The notes under the pieces: model-generated
What the model saw: the letters and a program-made list of their open reading frames with translations, nothing else
The model's database searches: none
What the model was told of the DNA's origin: nothing
Part shown: positions 276-32,069 of the stretch, piece by piece
How positions within the stretch are numbered: position 1 is the first letter of the stretch
Layout: each line of letters opens with the position of its first letter
Made by a program: the position numbers and the translations under genes
Assembly (NCBI GenBank): GCA_029239675.1
Contig: JARBUM010000023.1
Span: forward strand, 1 to 32,140
DNA: 32,140 nucleotides
Source of the DNA: Pelosinus sp.
GTDB lineage: Bacteria > Bacillota > Negativicutes > DSM-13327
Reading direction: 5' to 3'

Positions 276-1577
276 TTATTCCCCCCTCTCCCTTCCTATG
301 AAACAGTGATCAGCTGGGCATTGCTTTTGAATATGTGCCTCAAACTCGTCCCTAAAATATTTTAAACAACTAGTAAGAGCTACAGCGGCTGATTGCCCTA
401 ACCCACAAAAAGACGCATTCGTCATGGTATCAGTTAAACGCTTCATCACATGAAAATCTTCTTGTACAGCAACACCCTCTTGAAACTTACGTAAAATTTT
501 ATACATTTGCCAATTCCCCTCGCGACAGGGTGTGCATTTGCCACAAGATTCATGAATAAAAAATTCAGTAACTCCTTTTAGATAATCAATGATACATACA
601 GATTCATCTACCACAACAACGGCACCAGAACCCACACTTAGTCCTACGGATCGCAGTGCTTTATAACAGTAAGGCGTATCTAACTGCTCTGGTATACCAC
701 AGGGGCCAGATTGCCCACCTAAATGAAAAAACTTAAGTTTTTTGTTATTAGCTATGCCGCCACCAATTTGAGGATCATAAATAATGTCACGTAAGGTAAC
801 ACCAAAAGGTATTTCATATACGCCACGTTTAGCGACATGACCAGATAAGCACACTAATTTTGTTCCACCACTATCCTTAGTCCCATAACTTAGATACTTT
901 TCGCCGCCCATTTGAACAATAAGCGGAATATTAGCAAAACTCTCTACATTATTCACTAAAGTCGGCATAGAAAATAATCCGACTTCCGCTAAATGAGGTG
1001 GTTTAATTCTAGGTCTTCCCGCTTTGCCTTCTATTGAATTTAAGAGTGCTGAATTTTCCCCACACACATAGGCACCTGCTCCAGTCACTATATGAATATG
1101 AAAATCAAACTTCGTACCTAGAATGTTGTTTCCCAAATATCCACTCTCTATAGCATGATCTATGGCTTTTTGAAAACTCCTTTGAATTGCTGCATATTCA
1201 CCCCGAATATAAATATAACCATCATTGGAATTAAACACATATCCAGCAATAATCATACCTTCAATGACCCCCAAAGGATCTTGACTTAATAGCAATTTAT
1301 CCTTAAAGGTGCCAGGTTCTCCCTCATCTGCATTACAGACAATATATTTCGGAAATTCAGGTATATGAAGCAAATGTTCCCATTTAGCTCCTGCCGGATA
1401 AGCCGCACCGCCACGGCCCAACAGTTTAGCAGTTTTTATTTCAGCAATAATTTCAGTAGGATCCTGTGTAAAAGCCTTCTTTAGACCTTCAAATCCACCA
1501 GCATGTACATATTCCTCTACTGATTCAGGGGTTATGTTATTGCAATTTTTAGAAATTAATCGTACTATTTTTGACAT
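276..1577 (-). CDS. NuoF/HydB-like NADH-binding flavoprotein subunit
   Basis: 433 aa, the size of a canonical NuoF core. Visible motifs are the NADH-binding glycine-rich loop GRGGAAYPAG (about residue 54), the FMN-site segment NADEGEPGTFKDK (about 82), and the [4Fe-4S] ligands ESCGKCTPCREG followed by the fourth ligand in SFCGLGQSA. It oxidises NADH, or reduces NAD+, through FMN and passes electrons to the FeS subunit encoded next. Unlike many bifurcating HydB proteins, it lacks both the N-terminal thioredoxin-like [2Fe-2S] domain and the C-terminal 2x[4Fe-4S] ferredoxin domain. It overlaps the upstream NuoE-like gene by 13 nt and is followed after one base by the next subunit. This gives a three-gene set typical of soluble NAD(P)-linked hydrogenases or formate dehydrogenases rather than full complex I. 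The family call is secure; the exact complex is inferred. Confidence 0.9.
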   Translation of the reverse strand: MSKIVRLISKNCNNITPESVEEYVHAGGFEGLKKAFTQDPTEIIAEIKTAKLLGRGGAAYPAGAKWEHLLHIPEFPKYIVCNADEGEPGTFKDKLLLSQDPLGVIEGMIIAGYVFNSNDGYIYIRGEYAAIQRSFQKAIDHAIESGYLGNNILGTKFDFHIHIVTGAGAYVCGENSALLNSIEGKAGRPRIKPPHLAEVGLFSMPTLVNNVESFANIPLIVQMGGEKYLSYGTKDSGGTKLVCLSGHVAKRGVYEIPFGVTLRDIIYDPQIGGGIANNKKLKFFHLGGQSGPCGIPEQLDTPYCYKALRSVGLSVGSGAVVVVDESVCIIDYLKGVTEFFIHESCGKCTPCREGNWQMYKILRKFQEGVAVQEDFHVMKRLTDTMTNASFCGLGQSAAVALTSCLKYFRDEFEAHIQKQCPADHCFIGRERGE

Positions 1578-2056
1578 GATAATGCCCCCTGATACTTTCT
1601 TATAATATCAATAATTTTTGTTTGGGTTAAATCCCCATATACATCCTCACCAATTTTAGCGACTGGGCCTATATCACAAGCGCCTACACAGGCAGTATAT
1701 AACAAGGTAAATTGTTGATCCTTTGTTGTTTCACCAACCTTGATACCTAATTGTTCTTCAAAGATTTTTGCGATTGCATCAGATTTATTGATATAACAGG
1801 GAGTGCTCTTGCAAATTTCAATCACATACTTACCACGAGGCTCTGTTGAAAACATCGCATAAAAAGTTAAGACATCATATACTTTGCTTAAGGGTAAATT
1901 AAGTTCTGAAGCAACAATCTTAGCCCATTCTTCCTCCACAGAATTTTTCCCTGAAGCATTTTGAATGGCAAGAAGGATCAATAATAATTTTTCCTTCGAC
2001 TTACCTATGCCTTCGATAATCGTAAGAATTTGTGACGAATTTAGTTCCCCAACCAT
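1565..2056 (-). CDS. NuoE/HydC-like [2Fe-2S] thioredoxin-fold subunit
   Basis: 163 aa, typical NuoE length. The C-terminal half has the four cluster ligands in the usual pattern: CKSTPC (Cx4C), then about 36 residues later CVGAC (Cx3C), followed by the conserved DIGPVAKIGEDVYGDL tail. The N-terminal half is the helical NuoE domain (LNLPLSKVYDVLTFYAMFSTEPRGKY). In NADH-linked hydrogenases, formate dehydrogenases and complex I, this subunit sits beside the flavoprotein and carries the N1a-type cluster. It is the first gene of the left-edge operon. ATG at 2056 is preceded by a purine-rich AAGGAGAGGAAGA stretch. Upstream lies module A (2134-2239), a promoter and leader hairpin duplicated before the response regulator. 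Confidence 0.9.
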   Translation of the reverse strand: MVGELNSSQILTIIEGIGKSKEKLLLILLAIQNASGKNSVEEEWAKIVASELNLPLSKVYDVLTFYAMFSTEPRGKYVIEICKSTPCYINKSDAIAKIFEEQLGIKVGETTKDQQFTLLYTACVGACDIGPVAKIGEDVYGDLTQTKIIDIIRKYQGALSCQK

Positions 2057-2133
2057 ATGTCTCTTCCTCTCCTTTATACTCTTATCCCTGCAAGCATAAA
2101 CCTTTAATCCACTCTTTGTATACTTCTAGAAAA

Positions 2134-2186
2134 AAGACTTGTCCTATGCTCTTAAGGCTAATTTGCCAAGCAAAAGTTCAAGTCTT
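2134..2186 (-). promoter_or_regulatory. Leader hairpin of duplicated module, copy A
   Basis: Read on the minus strand, outer arms AAGACTTG and CAAGTCTT pair perfectly. They enclose an asymmetric internal loop (AACTTTT against ATAGGA) and a variable apical stem (GCTT-GGC / GCC-AAGAGC with bulges). The first 18 nt (AAGACTTGAACTTTTGCT) and the last 18 nt (AGCATAGGACAAGTCTTT) are identical to copy B at 4258-4306. In this copy the 3' arm runs into six T, so it could also end or attenuate transcription. It lies about 77 nt before the NuoE-like start. Confidence 0.7.
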
Positions 2187-2206
2187 TTCATTTAATGGAT
2201 ATAATT

Positions 2207-2239
2207 ATTATATTATAGGATGGATTTATTGTATACTTG
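2207..2239 (-). promoter_or_regulatory. Promoter of the nuoE-like operon, module copy A
   Basis: On the minus strand, CAAGTATACAA (2229-2239), a 16-nt gap and TATAAT (2207-2212). The block and spacing are identical to copy B (4326-4358). A sigma-A reading is TATACA-17-TATAAT, a weak -35 with a perfect -10, so CAAGTATACAA may also be an activator site. A further TTGTATACTT (plus strand) lies at 2116-2125, downstream of the hairpin. A second overlapping TATAAT lies at 2212-2217. Confidence 0.6.
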
Positions 2240-2260
2240 TAACCTTCTAAATAAATGGAT

Positions 2261-3484
2261 TTATTTCAGAAGTTGAGATACAAAAACCAACTGTATACCT
2301 CCTGCCTCTAACTCAGGCACCATTTCCCTCACCGCTACGGCTGTATTCATACGAGCATGGCCAATAACCGTCACTGTACCATGTTTAGCCGCCATCTCCT
2401 GAGCAATGCGCAATTTTGCTTTTACAGCACTCACATCATCCGTATTGTCAAGAAACAATTCATTTTCTCCAGCTTGTATCCCCATTTGCCTAGCTGTCTC
2501 AGCAGCGATGGATTGACTATTGGTACGACTATCTACAAAAAACAGATTATTAGATTTTAGAACACTGAGTACATTTTTCATGACCCGTCTATCAGCTGTA
2601 GCTCTTGATCCTTGATGATTATTTACTCCCATCAGCCCTGGTACTGCTTGGATGGCCTTTTGTACCATATCTTGTATTGCTCCGTCACTCATATTTACAG
2701 TAACAGTTAATTCTTCAGATTGTGCTCCTTGGGATAATGGCTCCATTGGCAAATGCAAAATAACTTGATTCCCCGAACTTAGTCCTTTAGCTGCAGCTTC
2801 ATTGCTAAAAGGGCGGTAGGGTATTACAGCAAAGGTAATGGGCCGGGAGATAGCAGCGAAAGCATCAATTGATTCTTTATTATAGCCAAAATCATCAATG
2901 ATAATTGCCATTTGTCCCTGCACTCTTCCGCTCATTTTTTTTTCAGAATTACTTATAGTCTTCGGAAAATCGTTTTTTTCTTTGGTAACATATACCCTGT
3001 CACTAATAATGGTAATGTCCTCTTCAGCTAATTTATCTTTTAAACCAATATCAAGGCGTACCACTGCTATTCCTTGATATGTATCAGGCTGAGAAGATAA
3101 TATTTGGCCACCGGCATTCTTTACTCCATTATCCAGCATTTGTTTCATAGATTCTAGGGAGGTTTCCGGTGATACAGTGACAAGCAATTGCCGTGTATGC
3201 CAGCGAATCGTTCCTTCAATATTTTTCCGTGGCACTTCTTTTGCTATTTCTTTAGTTTCTCCTATAGAGAATTCACCTTTTCGTAAGACAGAATCAACAG
3301 CAACGTGCACTTTCTTACTCGCGTCAGTAAAATCCGCTACCGCTCCAGCTCCAGTCTTCTCAAGATTGTGCTTTGGAGGAGTTTGCTGATTTGAATCTTG
3401 GGTAAAATTCACATATAAGGCCATCATTACTAAAGCAACTATTAAGATTAGCCAGATACCTTTTCTATCCTTTCCTTTTGCCAT
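2261..3484 (-). CDS. Divergent polysaccharide deacetylase family protein (YibQ/DUF610-like)
   Basis: 407 aa. One N-terminal membrane anchor (about residues 10-26, GIWLILIVALVMMALYV) is followed by a low-complexity linker and an accessory region of about 170 residues. The C-terminal domain of about 215 residues has the hallmarks of the divergent polysaccharide deacetylase family (Pfam Polysacc_deac_2): MAIIIDDFGYN, HLPMEPL, VNNHQGSRAT, FFVDSRT and GHARMNTA. The domain is probably outside the cytoplasmic membrane and acts on an envelope glycan; the substrate is not known for the family. ATG at 3484 follows GGGAGG. Its start is 33 nt after the response-regulator stop, so the two are likely co-transcribed. 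The accessory region (residues about 40-190) is not one I recognise. Confidence 0.85.
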   Translation of the reverse strand: MAKGKDRKGIWLILIVALVMMALYVNFTQDSNQQTPPKHNLEKTGAGAVADFTDASKKVHVAVDSVLRKGEFSIGETKEIAKEVPRKNIEGTIRWHTRQLLVTVSPETSLESMKQMLDNGVKNAGGQILSSQPDTYQGIAVVRLDIGLKDKLAEEDITIISDRVYVTKEKNDFPKTISNSEKKMSGRVQGQMAIIIDDFGYNKESIDAFAAISRPITFAVIPYRPFSNEAAAKGLSSGNQVILHLPMEPLSQGAQSEELTVTVNMSDGAIQDMVQKAIQAVPGLMGVNNHQGSRATADRRVMKNVLSVLKSNNLFFVDSRTNSQSIAAETARQMGIQAGENELFLDNTDDVSAVKAKLRIAQEMAAKHGTVTVIGHARMNTAVAVREMVPELEAGGIQLVFVSQLLK

Positions 3485-3517
3485 GTATGGCCTCCCTTTT
3501 CAAAATATCGTTATCAA

Positions 3518-4210
3518 TCAACTATTATCTAATTGTCTCTCATGATTACAGCGATATCGATATACAGGTCTCCCTACAGCCCCATAACTAATTTCAACAT
3601 GTAATAAATCTACGCTTTGAAAATACTTAAGATATTTACGAATAGACACCGGGGAAAGCCCCACATAGTTTGCCATTTCTTCAGCAGTAAACTCTTCCTT
3701 TTGCTCTAGAATATGCTCCCATACCCTTTTAATTGTATTACGGTCCAATCCTTTAGGTAATTCAACATCCATTTGAGAATGTCTTACAAAAATCTGTTGG
3801 TCCAAAAGGTTTTGAGACAAATTAGAAGCATCTCTTATTAAGAGTAACCTTTTTTTAAAAGAAACTAAAGCAGTTTGCATCCGTTCAAATTCAAATGGCT
3901 TAATCAAATAGTCAACTGCCCCATTTCGAAGAGCCATTTGAATACTTTGATTATCTCGGGCTGCAGATACTACAATAACATCCACACTGTAATCTTGCTG
4001 ACGAATAGCAGATAGTAATTCTAATCCATTCATATTAGGCATGAAAATATCCAAAAGAACTAAGTCAATATTCTTTTCTTCAAGAAATTTTAATGCCTCT
4101 TCACCATTTTTTACGATCCCAATAAATAAAAAGCCTTCTACTCGCTCAACATAGCGTCGATTTAATTCAGCGACCATAGGATCATCTTCTACGATTAAAA
4201 CTTTTATCAT
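3518..4210 (-). CDS. CitB/DcuR-type response regulator
   Basis: 230 aa. Receiver domain 1-120 has the acidic pair E8/D9/D10 (IVEDDPMVAE), phosphoacceptor D54 (VLLDIFMPNMNGLELL) and K104 (YLIKPFEF). A linker is followed by a C-terminal winged HTH (about 174-197, FTAEEMANYVGLSPVSIRKYL), as in the CitB/DcuR/MalR subfamily that partners CitA/DcuS kinases sensing C4-dicarboxylates or citrate. The cognate kinase is very probably the DcuS-like protein at 5879-7495, although the ndh gene separates them. RBS AAAGGAG precedes ATG at 4210. It has its own promoter and leader hairpin (module B), the same module as that of the nuoE-like operon. This suggests that a common factor, perhaps this regulator itself, controls both. 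Confidence 0.92.
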   Translation of the reverse strand: MIKVLIVEDDPMVAELNRRYVERVEGFLFIGIVKNGEEALKFLEEKNIDLVLLDIFMPNMNGLELLSAIRQQDYSVDVIVVSAARDNQSIQMALRNGAVDYLIKPFEFERMQTALVSFKKRLLLIRDASNLSQNLLDQQIFVRHSQMDVELPKGLDRNTIKRVWEHILEQKEEFTAEEMANYVGLSPVSIRKYLKYFQSVDLLHVEISYGAVGRPVYRYRCNHERQLDNS

Positions 4211-4257
4211 TCTGATTCTCCTTTACGAAGTCTATATCCTACTCTTATCTAAACAGA

Positions 4258-4306
4258 AAGACTTGTCCTATGCTCACTTCAATCTCTGAGCAAAAGTTCA
4301 AGTCTT
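4258..4306 (-). promoter_or_regulatory. Leader hairpin of duplicated module, copy B
   Basis: Minus-strand arms AAGACTTG and CAAGTCTT enclose the same internal loop as copy A (AACTTTT / ATAGGA) and a clean apical stem GCTCA...TGAGC with a 10-nt loop. The apical sequence differs from copy A but still pairs, which is the pattern expected of a selected RNA structure. The 3' arm is followed by TTTCTGTTT, a weaker T-run than in copy A. It lies about 47 nt before the response-regulator start. Confidence 0.7.
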
Positions 4307-4325
4307 CTTAACTTATAGTGTATTT

Positions 4326-4358
4326 ATTATAATACACCCTATTCTATTTGTATACTTG
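4326..4358 (-). promoter_or_regulatory. Promoter of the response-regulator gene, module copy B
   Basis: On the minus strand, CAAGTATACAA (4348-4358), 16 nt, TATAAT (4326-4331), then 19 nt to the leader hairpin. The block, the spacing and the distance to the hairpin match copy A (20 nt there). This is a TATACA-17-TATAAT sigma-A-like reading with a conserved upstream CAAG. Confidence 0.6.
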
Positions 4359-4443
4359 CAATTTTGGTGAGTGAATACTGAAACATCCATTCCAGTGAGT
4401 AAGCCCTAGTTATAAGAATAACTAGATGCAATTTTTACTTTAC

Positions 4444-5700
4444 TTATTGTCGAGTGATGATACGTACAACTCTTTCATATACAAGATAATCCCACATCCA
4501 TTTCACAAAAACAACGGCCCGATTACGAAAATCTATGAGACGTAAAATATGCACCAAAGACCAGATGGACCAGGCAATAAAACCATGAGATTTGAATTTA
4601 CCCATATGCACTACAGCTGCATTACGACCTATGGTTGCCATATTTCCTACATCTTTGTATATGAACTTTTTAAGTTCTTTACCACGAATTAAGTTGCGTA
4701 TATTTTTTGCCGCAATTTCAGCCTGTTGTATCGCTACGGGCGCTATCATTGGCAAAGGCCGTTCCCCCTGAACATAATGAGCCGCATCACCAATTACAAA
4801 TACGTCAGGACGAGTTGGCAATTGTAAAAAATCGTTTACAATGGCTCGCCGCATACTAGCTTGTTCAACATCCAATGTATCAATCAAGGAGTTGGCTTTT
4901 ACGCCTGCTGCCCAAACAACAGTATAGGTGGGAATGACTTCGCCCCCCTTTAGACTCATTCTCTCCCCATCATAGTCTGTAACCTGCACACATAAACGTA
5001 CTTCGACATGTTTGCGAATTAGGGTTTCTACGGTAGCATCACGCAGTTCTTCCGGCATGGTTGCAAATAATTTATCAGAAGCCTCTACTAGCACAATGCG
5101 TACTTCTTTAAAGTTTAAATTATGATATTCTTTTACCATAACATGATAAATCAGTTCCGACAATGCACCTGCAGATTCTACCCCTGTAGGACCGCCGCCA
5201 ACAATCACAAAGGTTAATAAGGCCCTACGCTTATCAGCATCCTTCTCGTGGGCTGCCAATTCAAACATACGTAGTACATGATTACGAATCATAACGGATT
5301 CATCCAAGGTTTTCATGCCAAAACCATTTTTCTCCATAGATTCCATGCCAAAATAATTTGTTGTTCCCCCTGCTGCTACCACCAGATAATCATAGGCAAT
5401 TTTACCTGTATTCATACTAACCACTTTTTTATCAAAATCTACATCTGCTACTTCCGCTAAGCGAAAGTCTACATTTTTCTGATCTCTAAAGATAGCACGG
5501 ACAGGATAGGCAATATCATCTACGGATAATCCAGCCGTTGCCACTTGATAGAGCAAAGGCTGAAATAAGTGATAGTTATATTTATCGATAAGGGTAATCT
5601 TTACCTCATGTTTTGCCAAGGCTCGAGCTGTGCGTATTCCGCCAAAACCAGCACCAACAATTACAATATGAGGTGGCATTACCGCTGTTGTACTCTCCAC
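4444..5700 (-). CDS. ndh: Type II NADH dehydrogenase (NDH-2), NAD(P)/FAD oxidoreductase
   Basis: 418 aa, normal NDH-2 size. The N-terminal FAD Rossmann motif is HIVIVGAGFGGIRTARAL (about 11-28). A second dinucleotide motif for NADH, FVIVGGGPTGVESAGALSE, lies near 165-185, and the FAD-contact VFVIGDAAHY near 300. The C-terminus is amphipathic and hydrophobic (WSIWSLVHILRLIDF...VKWMWDYLVY), as in the membrane-attaching tail of NDH-2. It moves electrons from NADH to membrane quinone without pumping ions. Start GTG at 5700 follows GGAGG with a 9-nt gap. It lies between the sensor kinase (178 nt downstream of its stop) and the response regulator on the same strand, so it may be co-regulated with them. 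An NADH:rubredoxin or other acceptor role cannot be excluded in an anaerobe. Confidence 0.9.
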   Translation of the reverse strand: MESTTAVMPPHIVIVGAGFGGIRTARALAKHEVKITLIDKYNYHLFQPLLYQVATAGLSVDDIAYPVRAIFRDQKNVDFRLAEVADVDFDKKVVSMNTGKIAYDYLVVAAGGTTNYFGMESMEKNGFGMKTLDESVMIRNHVLRMFELAAHEKDADKRRALLTFVIVGGGPTGVESAGALSELIYHVMVKEYHNLNFKEVRIVLVEASDKLFATMPEELRDATVETLIRKHVEVRLCVQVTDYDGERMSLKGGEVIPTYTVVWAAGVKANSLIDTLDVEQASMRRAIVNDFLQLPTRPDVFVIGDAAHYVQGERPLPMIAPVAIQQAEIAAKNIRNLIRGKELKKFIYKDVGNMATIGRNAAVVHMGKFKSHGFIAWSIWSLVHILRLIDFRNRAVVFVKWMWDYLVYERVVRIITRQ

Positions 5701-5878
5701 GCTTACATTCCTCCACTTTAAAATCTTCCCACAAATACTAATTATATTCTAATGCAATAAAAAAATAATTGTACATTATAAATTTTTAATAACTAATAAC
5801 TAACTTAAATAACTAGAATTTCCTTTTAGATTAGCCTCACATTCACATAAACAGTACAAGAAAGACCTTCTATTTATT

Positions 5879-7495
5879 CTAACTCTTTATTTTATAAGGA
5901 ATATTCACCATAAATACTGTTCCTTCCCCTGGCCTGCTTTCAAATTCAATCGTTCCCTCTAGACGCTCTAAGCTGCGTTGAACTAAATGCAAACCAAAGC
6001 CTCTATTTTCCTCCTTACTAGAGATACCTTTTTCAAATAGTGTATTGCTTATTTCTGGCAAAATCCCCTCACCCGTATCACTTACATGGATGGTTAAGGT
6101 CCCCTTATTATAATATATATGCAGTTCTATCTCTTTATAAATACTATTGGCTACTGCATCAAAAGCATTTTCTACTAAATTACCAATAATCGTTACCAAT
6201 TCATGGACAATTTCACTGTCCCAGGGCTTAGGGACAAAGCTTTCTTCAGCCAGATGCATAATTACATTCTTTTCTCGTGACAAACTTAGTTTACTTAAAA
6301 TAAAGCCCGCAAGAACCGGCTCCTTAATACGTTTGGCTACGAAGTTGATTTCTTCTTCATGCTCAGATGCAATCTTATTAATATAGGTTGCCAATTGAGA
6401 ATAACTTTTTAATTTGACTAGGCCTAATATAACATGCAATCGGTTCATAAATTCGTGAGCCTGGGCTCTAAGAGCATCCACATAATCCTGCACACCTGTA
6501 AGCTGCTCTGCCAAGTCTTTCACCTCTGTTTTGTCCCGAAAGGTAGAAATAGCTCCCACAATTTTTCCATCCACAATCATTGGCAAACAATTAGCAATCA
6601 CGGGGGAACCATGAAAATTTTGTTCCTGATCCAATTGTGCTACCCCAGATTCAATCACATCTAGTAAATTCATATTCGGTACATAATTTGTAATGTATTT
6701 ACCTACAGGGCTGTCATCCACTCCTGCCATACCCAAGATTCTAAGTGCCTCAGCATTTGCCAAAGTAATCATTCCCTGACTATCAACGGCAAGAATCCCT
6801 TCATATACAGACTGCAACATGGCATTTCGCTCTTCCAGTCGATTGGCAATCTCCTCTGGCTCAAGGCCAAATAAAATGTTTTTTACATTTTCCGACAGCA
6901 AATACGCACCGATCATACCAATAAACATACCAATTAGTATTGCCGCAATTAATGCTTTTTGTGTCTCTTTCTCTAAGATTCTTATATTATCCATTAAGAC
7001 ACCAACCACTACCACGCCTACCTGCTTTCCCTCTGGAGTAAAGACTGGCACAAAGGCCCGCAATGCATCTCCTAAGGTTCCCTTAGCTACTGAAACATAT
7101 TCTTTACCAAAAAAGGAATCCGCTTCATCTCCCCCAACAAACTTTTGCCCGATCTTTTCGAAATTAGGATGAGACTTACGAATACCCTGCATGTCTAAAA
7201 TAACAATATATTCAACCTCAGCTGCAATCACACTCTCATTAGCATACGTCCGCATAGCACTTATATCTTTTTCTTTCGCTAATCCCTCAATTACCAGAGG
7301 AGATTTAGCAATAATATGCGCTACACTCATTGCTTTTCTCCCTGTCGCCTTCTGTGCATCTATTTCAATATTTTGGGAAATCAATACATTGGTAGCCAAT
7401 AATGCCACAACTACTACAGCAAATGTCAAAACCATTATTTTGGTTTGTAACTTAAAATTTCTATTTAAATACAAAAATACACTATTTAAGAACAA
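5879..7495 (-). CDS. DcuS/CitA-type sensor histidine kinase
   Basis: 538 aa, close to DcuS length. TM1 is about 21-40 and TM2 about 181-201, flanking an extracytoplasmic sensor domain. That domain has the CitA/DcuS signature SHPNFEKIGQKFVGGDE (108-124). A cytoplasmic PAS domain lies at about 222-325. The phosphoacceptor box AQAHEFMNRLHV has H347. The HATPase has an N-box (NLVENAFDA), G1 (SDTGEGI) and RGFGLHLV. It probably senses an extracellular organic acid such as a C4-dicarboxylate or citrate and phosphorylates the CitB-type regulator at 3518-4210. Start TTG at 7495 is chosen because AAGGTGGTG lies 5 nt upstream and the translation is in phase with TM1. No transporter for a dicarboxylate is visible nearby, so the ligand is inferred only. 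Confidence 0.92.
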   Translation of the reverse strand: MFLNSVFLYLNRNFKLQTKIMVLTFAVVVVALLATNVLISQNIEIDAQKATGRKAMSVAHIIAKSPLVIEGLAKEKDISAMRTYANESVIAAEVEYIVILDMQGIRKSHPNFEKIGQKFVGGDEADSFFGKEYVSVAKGTLGDALRAFVPVFTPEGKQVGVVVVGVLMDNIRILEKETQKALIAAILIGMFIGMIGAYLLSENVKNILFGLEPEEIANRLEERNAMLQSVYEGILAVDSQGMITLANAEALRILGMAGVDDSPVGKYITNYVPNMNLLDVIESGVAQLDQEQNFHGSPVIANCLPMIVDGKIVGAISTFRDKTEVKDLAEQLTGVQDYVDALRAQAHEFMNRLHVILGLVKLKSYSQLATYINKIASEHEEEINFVAKRIKEPVLAGFILSKLSLSREKNVIMHLAEESFVPKPWDSEIVHELVTIIGNLVENAFDAVANSIYKEIELHIYYNKGTLTIHVSDTGEGILPEISNTLFEKGISSKEENRGFGLHLVQRSLERLEGTIEFESRPGEGTVFMVNIPYKIKS

Positions 7496-18587: not shown

Positions 18588-18609
18588 GATATTCAACAAG
18601 TTAATATTT

Positions 18610-18709
18610 TTCATCAAGAGCAGTTGAGGGAATGGCCCTATGAAACTGCGGCAACCATTCACTTTGTGAAACGGTGCCAACTCCACAGGATCTGATCCTG
18701 GTAGATGAA
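18610..18709 (+). ncRNA. SAM-I (S-box) riboswitch aptamer before metN
   Basis: S-box consensus in order: P1 TTCATC (18610-18615), AAGAGCAGTTGAGGGA, ATGGCCCTATGAAACTGC, GGCAACC, a P3 arm, GGTGCCAACTCC, a GGATCTGATCC hairpin, and P1' GATGAA (18704-18709). The P1' strand with its extension (GATGAAGCG, 18704-18712) is complementary to CGCTTCAT of the following terminator. A SAM-dependent switch between antiterminator and terminator is therefore visible in the sequence. Confidence 0.96.
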
Positions 18710-18730
18710 GCGCAATTCAGTTTGATAACA

Positions 18731-31966: not shown

Positions 31967-32069
31967 CTCTTATCTGTCAGGATTTTCATCCTGCTGGAAT
32001 TAGCACCACTGCATTTCTGCCGGTTGCCGGGTGTCATAGGGCCAGTCCCTCGACCACTCTCGATAAGAG
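31967..32069 (-). ncRNA. SAM-I (S-box) riboswitch aptamer before metB
   Basis: Minus-strand S-box consensus: P1 CTCTTATCG, GAGAGTGGTCGAGGGA, CTGGCCCTATGACACCC, GGCAACC, a P3 arm, GTGGTGCTAATTCC, a GGATGAAAATCC hairpin, and P1' GATAAGAG. The conserved blocks match the aptamer at 18610-18709 while the P1 and P3 stems differ. High SAM should favour the downstream terminator and stop metB expression. Confidence 0.96.

Follow-up and report, generated by a model that had tools for sequence, protein, structure and literature searches.

The window analysed here, a stretch of 32,140 nucleotides (nt) from Pelosinus sp. (contig JARBUM010000023.1), contains two minus-strand copies of a promoter and hairpin module, A (2122-2248) and B (4246-4368). 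The duplication is real, and the family to which the two copies belong is, within what was searched, confined to one genus. We tentatively read the module as a promoter-proximal terminator, that is, an attenuation leader, and prefer this narrowly over a small RNA gene, a plain 3' terminator and an aptamer.

Layout of the two modules

In both modules TATACA-17-TATAAT is followed, after 19-20 nt, by a hairpin; the flanks of the two hairpins are identical and their tips differ. The geometry that an earlier note had read from the DNA holds on measurement: CAAGTATACAA ends 16 nt before TATAAT in both copies, the distance from the -10 to the hairpin is 20 nt in A and 19 nt in B, the identical flanks span 19 nt (2133-2151 = 4257-4275) and 18 nt (2169-2186 = 4289-4306), and a T-run follows copy A. 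The parts of the modules are as follows:

4326-4354 (minus strand): promoter B, with -35 TATACA at 4349-4354, a 17-nt spacer and -10 TATAAT at 4326-4331
4344-4358 (minus strand): box CAAGTATACAAATAG of promoter B
4258-4306 (minus strand): hairpin B, with outer stem AAGACTTG/CAAGTCTT, inner AACTTTT/ATAGGA and apical stem GCTCA/TGAGC
4251-4257 (minus strand): weak U-tract TCTGTTT 3' of hairpin B, the end of the conserved block
2207-2235 (minus strand): promoter A, with -35 TATACA at 2230-2235, a 17-nt spacer and -10 TATAAT at 2207-2212
2134-2186 (minus strand): hairpin A, with outer stem and inner sequence as in B and a tip 4 nt longer
2128-2133 (minus strand): T-run TTTTCT 3' of hairpin A
2116-2125 (minus strand): third exact AAGTATACAA, adjoining hairpin A on its 3' side

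Hairpin A folds at -23.0 kcal/mol (z -4.0), with 0/200 dinucleotide shuffles as good, and hairpin B at -20.5 kcal/mol (z -2.6), with 3/200 as good. The tail after hairpin B, TTTCTGTTT, is weaker than the T-run of A. With transcription assumed to start 7 nt after the -10, as for all RNA lengths predicted here, RNA B would run from ~4319 to 4249 (71 nt) and RNA A from ~2200 (76 nt); ~12-15 nt of RNA would precede the hairpin. That note missed the third AAGTATACAA, possibly a second regulator box before nuoE, the gene that follows module A; it is absent as such in two related genomes (G007 and G008).

Promoters A (2235..2207) and B (4354..4326) each score 10/12 as TATACA-17-TATAAT, a score reached by 5/200 shuffles for A and by 6/200 for B. 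The same scan gives a score of 10 to one further site in this 2.4-kb region, where the count of promoter-like sites (12, against a shuffle mean of 8.2 with standard deviation 3.2) is not clearly above chance. A palindrome, GTGTATTATAATAAATACAC, lies over the -10 of promoter B (4318-4337) in the window and in G006 and is a possible operator; it is imperfect in the other B loci.

A module family found in Pelosinus

The assembly from which the window comes is a 3.88-Mb draft of 271 contigs, estimated to be 89% complete, and exact arm patterns find hairpins A and B as its only two matches. A covariance model built from these two sequences detects the hairpin in 8/8 genomes of the genus. When the promoter was included and 380 genomes of the class Negativicutes were searched, the model returned 11 copies, all of them in the same eight genomes, each of which carries one or two; the other 372 genomes gave no module at E≤0.01. 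The earlier note named further copies before redox or fermentation genes as support: nine more, sharing the internal loop, are present in the seven other Pelosinus genomes, before redox, fermentation or regulatory genes, and in the wider search of Negativicutes that it proposed the family stays within the genus. A model of all 11 copies matched 10 of 300 class genomes at E≤0.003, namely the eight of the genus and two others whose hits are ordinary hairpins on inspection. The class-wide runs used stricter filters, with which weak matches can be lost, and the order-level sample comprised the same 10 genomes as the family-level one. Across the genomes of 84,980 species, a set from which near relatives of the window may have been excluded, the exact arm pattern found four stretches, all in Pelosinus; it found none in viral contigs, and module B had no blastn match in plasmids and phages at E up to 1.

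Weaker candidates did not extend the family. The weak model matches inspected are terminator-like hairpins without the inner segment (L011, L012, L016, L017, L038, L043, L048, L049, L050, L057, L058, L129, L130 and L135) or are without a terminator-like stem (L018). As a search for members with a different outer stem, CTTTTGC-N(4,34)-GCATrGGA gave 22 matches in the eight genomes, eight of which are module copies (the copies G007A, G008A and G008H fall outside this pattern). No flanking stem was seen in 12 of the 14 non-module matches, for which the flanks were read; the remaining two, C160 and C196 in the window's genome, resemble L079 and L064.

No known family accounts for the module, as the earlier note had also recognised none: at Rfam 15 gathering scores, only two SAM riboswitches match in the whole window (18608-18711 on the plus strand and 31967-32069 on the minus strand), and neither module is hit. 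Searching region 2050-4450 at E up to 10 returns four chance matches, the best with E 1.5 (mir-87, mir-499 twice and sn2417). The portions consulted of the literature on Pelosinus small RNAs, transcriptomes and riboswitches and on noncoding RNA motifs of Negativicutes name no element like the module, and a term search of PMC6429828 finds Pelosinus 0 times.

The earlier note took invariant flanks with a variable but paired tip as the mark of selected RNA structure, and for the invariant 8-bp outer stem its case is weakened. Across the eight genomes, the pattern AAGACTTG-N(3,33)-CAAGTCTT occurs 9, 10, 10, 9, 5, 15, 17 and 7 times (82 in total, with one nested pair counted twice), and by spacer length module copies make up nine of the 82 among the matches listed; read backwards as a control, the pattern does not occur in these genomes. 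Fourteen of the loci, L089-L102, were examined and include one module; each of the remaining 13 has the stop codon of a flanking open reading frame of at least 100 aa at a distance of 6-116 nt, in 12 cases of 6-39 nt. One similar hairpin was found in another family of the class (L058). The outer stem is thus a common, stock predicted terminator stem of Pelosinus, a spread that the earlier note had missed, and finding the same stem in A and B therefore says little for a special fold. The family-specific parts are instead the promoter, which carries a CAAGTATACAA-like box, its spacing, and the inner AmCTTTT facing GCATrGGA.

Gene contexts and conservation

The genes on either side of the modules confirm the nuoE/F type and the CitB-type regulator proposed by the earlier note. 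All are on the minus strand:

3518-4210 (minus strand): DcuR/CitB-type response regulator, first gene 3' of hairpin B, 47 nt away
4444-5700 (minus strand): NDH-2-like pyridine nucleotide-disulphide oxidoreductase (ndh), 5' of module B
5879-7495 (minus strand): DcuS/MalK-type sensor kinase, with ndh and module B between it and the regulator
1565-2056 (minus strand): NuoE-like subunit, first gene 3' of hairpin A, with its ATG 77 nt past the end of the hairpin
276-1577 (minus strand): NuoF-like subunit
2261-3484 (minus strand): divergent polysaccharide deacetylase, 5' of module A

Three contexts recur. Six copies lie between ndh and the DcuR-like regulator (module B of the window, G003, G004, G005, G006 and G009), three between the deacetylase and nuoE, which nuoF follows (module A, G007 and G008), and two between a 2HCT-type symporter and 4-hydroxyphenylacetate decarboxylase (hpd; G007 and G008). 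The gene after nuoF encodes an [FeFe]-hydrogenase in G007 and G008; in the window's genome it is cut by the contig end after 91 aa. The DcuS/DcuR-type pair (3518-7495 in the window) is split by ndh and module B in 6/8 Pelosinus genomes, and the regulator directly follows the sensor in the remaining two, G007 and G008, as it does in G001, a genome of the sister genus. In G005 a repeat-like insert (CACAAAGG ... CCTTTGTGTCC; L021/L019) lies between module B and the regulator, and part of it is also found at this place in G003. Among the eight genomes searched, G007 and G008 alone have close hpd homologues (98-100%), each of which carries the module; the same search found a 54% relative in G006.

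All 11 copies share the module's geometry: the promoter layout is kept, the hairpin begins 18-21 nt after the -10, a T-rich tail follows the stem, and the predicted RNA is 70-76 nt long. Promoter B is also well kept, its box and motif having 0-1 mismatch in the six B loci; the motif CAAGTATACAAATAGAATAGAGTGTATTATAAT, with up to three mismatches allowed, was found only at these six modules. With gaps scored as differences, module B is 0.84-0.90 identical to its five relatives, against 0.46-0.55 at fourfold sites of ndh and 0.43-0.51 at those of the regulator. Module A is 0.72-0.74 identical to the copies of G007 and G008, where fourfold sites of the deacetylase and nuoE reach 0.43-0.51. The inner sequence is common to the three contexts and the tips have diverged.

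The tip, which the earlier note described as variable but paired, does keep its pairing through the changes (G008A is without one whole tip base pair of G007A and retains the 4-nt loop), but covariation in it is thin. The alignment holds eight distinct hairpin sequences, too few for a firm test, and 10 of 16 pairs never vary among these rows. Three of the 16 changed on both sides (reached by 160/500 shuffles), with seven cells changed on both sides (5/500); the covariation score was reached by 8/500 shuffles and the number of pair types by 229/500, and the RNAalifold covariation term is only -0.51.

A proposed leader and its rivals

As a leader, the module would work as follows, and it is here that we infer promoter activity, termination, control of read-through and an effector. 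In a transcript from the module promoter, the first ~70 nt would include an intrinsic terminator, at which polymerase would either stop, freeing an RNA of ~70 nt, or read on into the operon, whether the response regulator, the nuoEF operon or hpd. Read-through would be set by a protein or ligand that acts on the hairpin as it forms; the likely site of this control is the inner asymmetric segment, AmCUUUU facing GCAUrGGA, which is conserved.

What the sequence itself shows is a conserved module of fixed geometry with a paired tip, and no second evident promoter before nuoE and the regulator. The stock terminator stem with its T-rich tail, the conservation of module B well above fourfold sites and the presence of the module at both close hpd homologues speak for such a leader. 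The order of promoter, terminator and co-directional gene is found in 11/11 copies, the promoters of the hpd copies being weak. For the nine regulator and nuo copies, the promoter score 5' of the hairpin is reached by only 3-11/200 shuffles, while promoter-like pairs between hairpin and ATG stay within background (77-193/200 shuffles reach them). Since nuoE and the regulator of the window have no evident promoter nearer than that of the module, read-through would be the simplest route to their expression; alternatively, both may be transcribed from further upstream. The attenuation that the earlier note considered possible agrees with this order, but its classical form, like a riboswitch with an upstream antiterminator, misfits because the ~12-15 nt before the hairpin are too few. 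Comparison by eye with the kink-turn and CsrA-type (GGA) motifs led to both being rejected for the inner segment.

A number of observations weigh against a leader. No antiterminator partner was seen, and a simple terminator scan with a loop limit of 8 nt flags neither hairpin of the window. The regulator has no module in G007 and G008, where it directly follows the sensor, and the three nuoE loci were found via the module, so that their co-occurrence is no test. In the two hpd copies the module promoter is weaker (26 and 43/200 shuffles reach it), and between hairpin and hpd there is a possible separate promoter in G007 (12/200), which is unsupported in G008 (84/200). The hpd modules of G007 and G008 are 0.83 identical and fourfold sites 0.86: here the module is not more conserved, which weighs against a uniform constraint on it. 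Finally, the module keeps its place with the upstream rather than the downstream gene. From hairpin to ATG the six B loci measure 47, 221, 140, 309, 138 and 163 nt (the three nuo copies 76-78 nt), and the hairpin lies 69-77 nt past the upstream stop codon in 10/11 copies, module B of the window being the exception at 137 nt. In the six B loci, to which the conservation profile was confined, conservation extends from 5' of the -35 as far as TCTGTTT, where it ends.

This end of conservation and the near-constant distance from the upstream stop codon suit either a gene for a small RNA or a terminator that belongs to the 3' end of the upstream gene. The former, a family of intergenic small RNA genes placed in 3' untranslated regions, is the main rival, slightly more doubtful than a leader: each module would have its own promoter and terminator and yield a ~70-nt hairpin RNA acting in trans on mRNAs or binding a protein, as other sibling small RNAs present in several copies do. 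The six B loci do show such a unit, with conservation limited to it, and the near-uniform predicted RNA length, the variable spacer to the regulator (47-309 nt, with the repeat-like insertion in G005), the possible own promoter of hpd in G007 and the occurrence of one module beside three unrelated genes all point the same way. What speaks for a leader instead is that nuoE and the regulator would be left without an evident near promoter in nine copies, that the module is co-directional with the next gene in every copy, and that tip and 5' tail differ among paralogues, leaving no unpaired seed conserved across them.

The hairpin may also end the upstream gene, given its place 69-77 nt past the stop. 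That it is nothing else, the outcome that the earlier note said would refute its reading, and so an ordinary 3' terminator of ndh, the deacetylase or the symporter with an incidental AT-rich, promoter-like stretch and an inner sequence shared through copying of the region, strikes us as unlikely. The stock outer stem and the near-constant position fit this explanation, as does the lack of any T-tailed hairpin seen by eye between stop and module (in that interval module B of the window has an inverted repeat, CTAGTTAT/ATAACTAG, without a T-run). It sits poorly with conservation that spans box, -35 and -10 and exceeds that of synonymous sites in A and B, with the promoter geometry of the 11 copies, with an inner sequence common to three contexts whose tips have diverged, and with the closer spacing to the stop (6-39 nt in 12/13) of the ordinary terminators examined.

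It seems improbable that the module is a new terminator-embedded sensor, in which AmCUUUU/GCAUrGGA would bind a small molecule or protein reporting redox or dicarboxylate state and gate the DcuR-type regulator, the nuoEF-hydrogenase operon and the glycyl radical enzyme. Least probable of all is a ligand-sensing aptamer built like the HMP-PP (thiS) riboswitch for another ligand, for which a conserved asymmetric segment in a terminator-like stem near the 5' end and the architectural precedent in the part of PMC6478431 consulted would speak, and against which stand 11 copies in a single genus, the lack of an evident pathway shared by the regulator, nuoEF and hpd, and an inner region that can alternatively be drawn as nothing more than an imperfect helix.

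Known systems and significance

The HMP-PP (thiS motif) riboswitch, as the consulted part of PMC6478431 describes it, has its sensing segment embedded in an intrinsic terminator stem, so control can sit there. The module likewise has a conserved segment inside a terminator-like stem; unlike that riboswitch, it has no Rfam match, is found in Pelosinus only and accompanies a regulator, nuoE and hpd, which are not thiamin genes. The Rfam library searched presumably includes the HMP-PP (thiS) family. The CiaR-dependent small RNAs (csRNAs) of Streptococcus, according to the portion of PMC3091779 consulted, are intergenic, 51-202 nt long and present as two to six genes per genome, with a regulated promoter followed by a terminator. 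The module shares this order of intergenic promoter and terminator, but is without a demonstrated regulator site or a seed common to its copies and occurs once or twice per genome. PyrR or LicT type attenuators are protein-controlled and place a terminator in the operon leader, as the module would; they differ in having an upstream antiterminator, for which the module has only ~12-15 nt before its hairpin. In Neisseria, DNA uptake sequence terminators reuse one terminator stem sequence within a genus, and the Pelosinus stem is likewise reused, 5-17 times per genome.

A stem that is repeated exactly at two sites can thus be the stock terminator stem of a genus, and repeat identity alone therefore overstates the case for a new RNA class. 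If the leader reading is correct, the module would be an undescribed, genus-specific regulatory RNA module, one that would link a two-component system of the C4-dicarboxylate type with a nuoEF-hydrogenase operon and also, in two of the genomes, with a glycyl radical decarboxylase.

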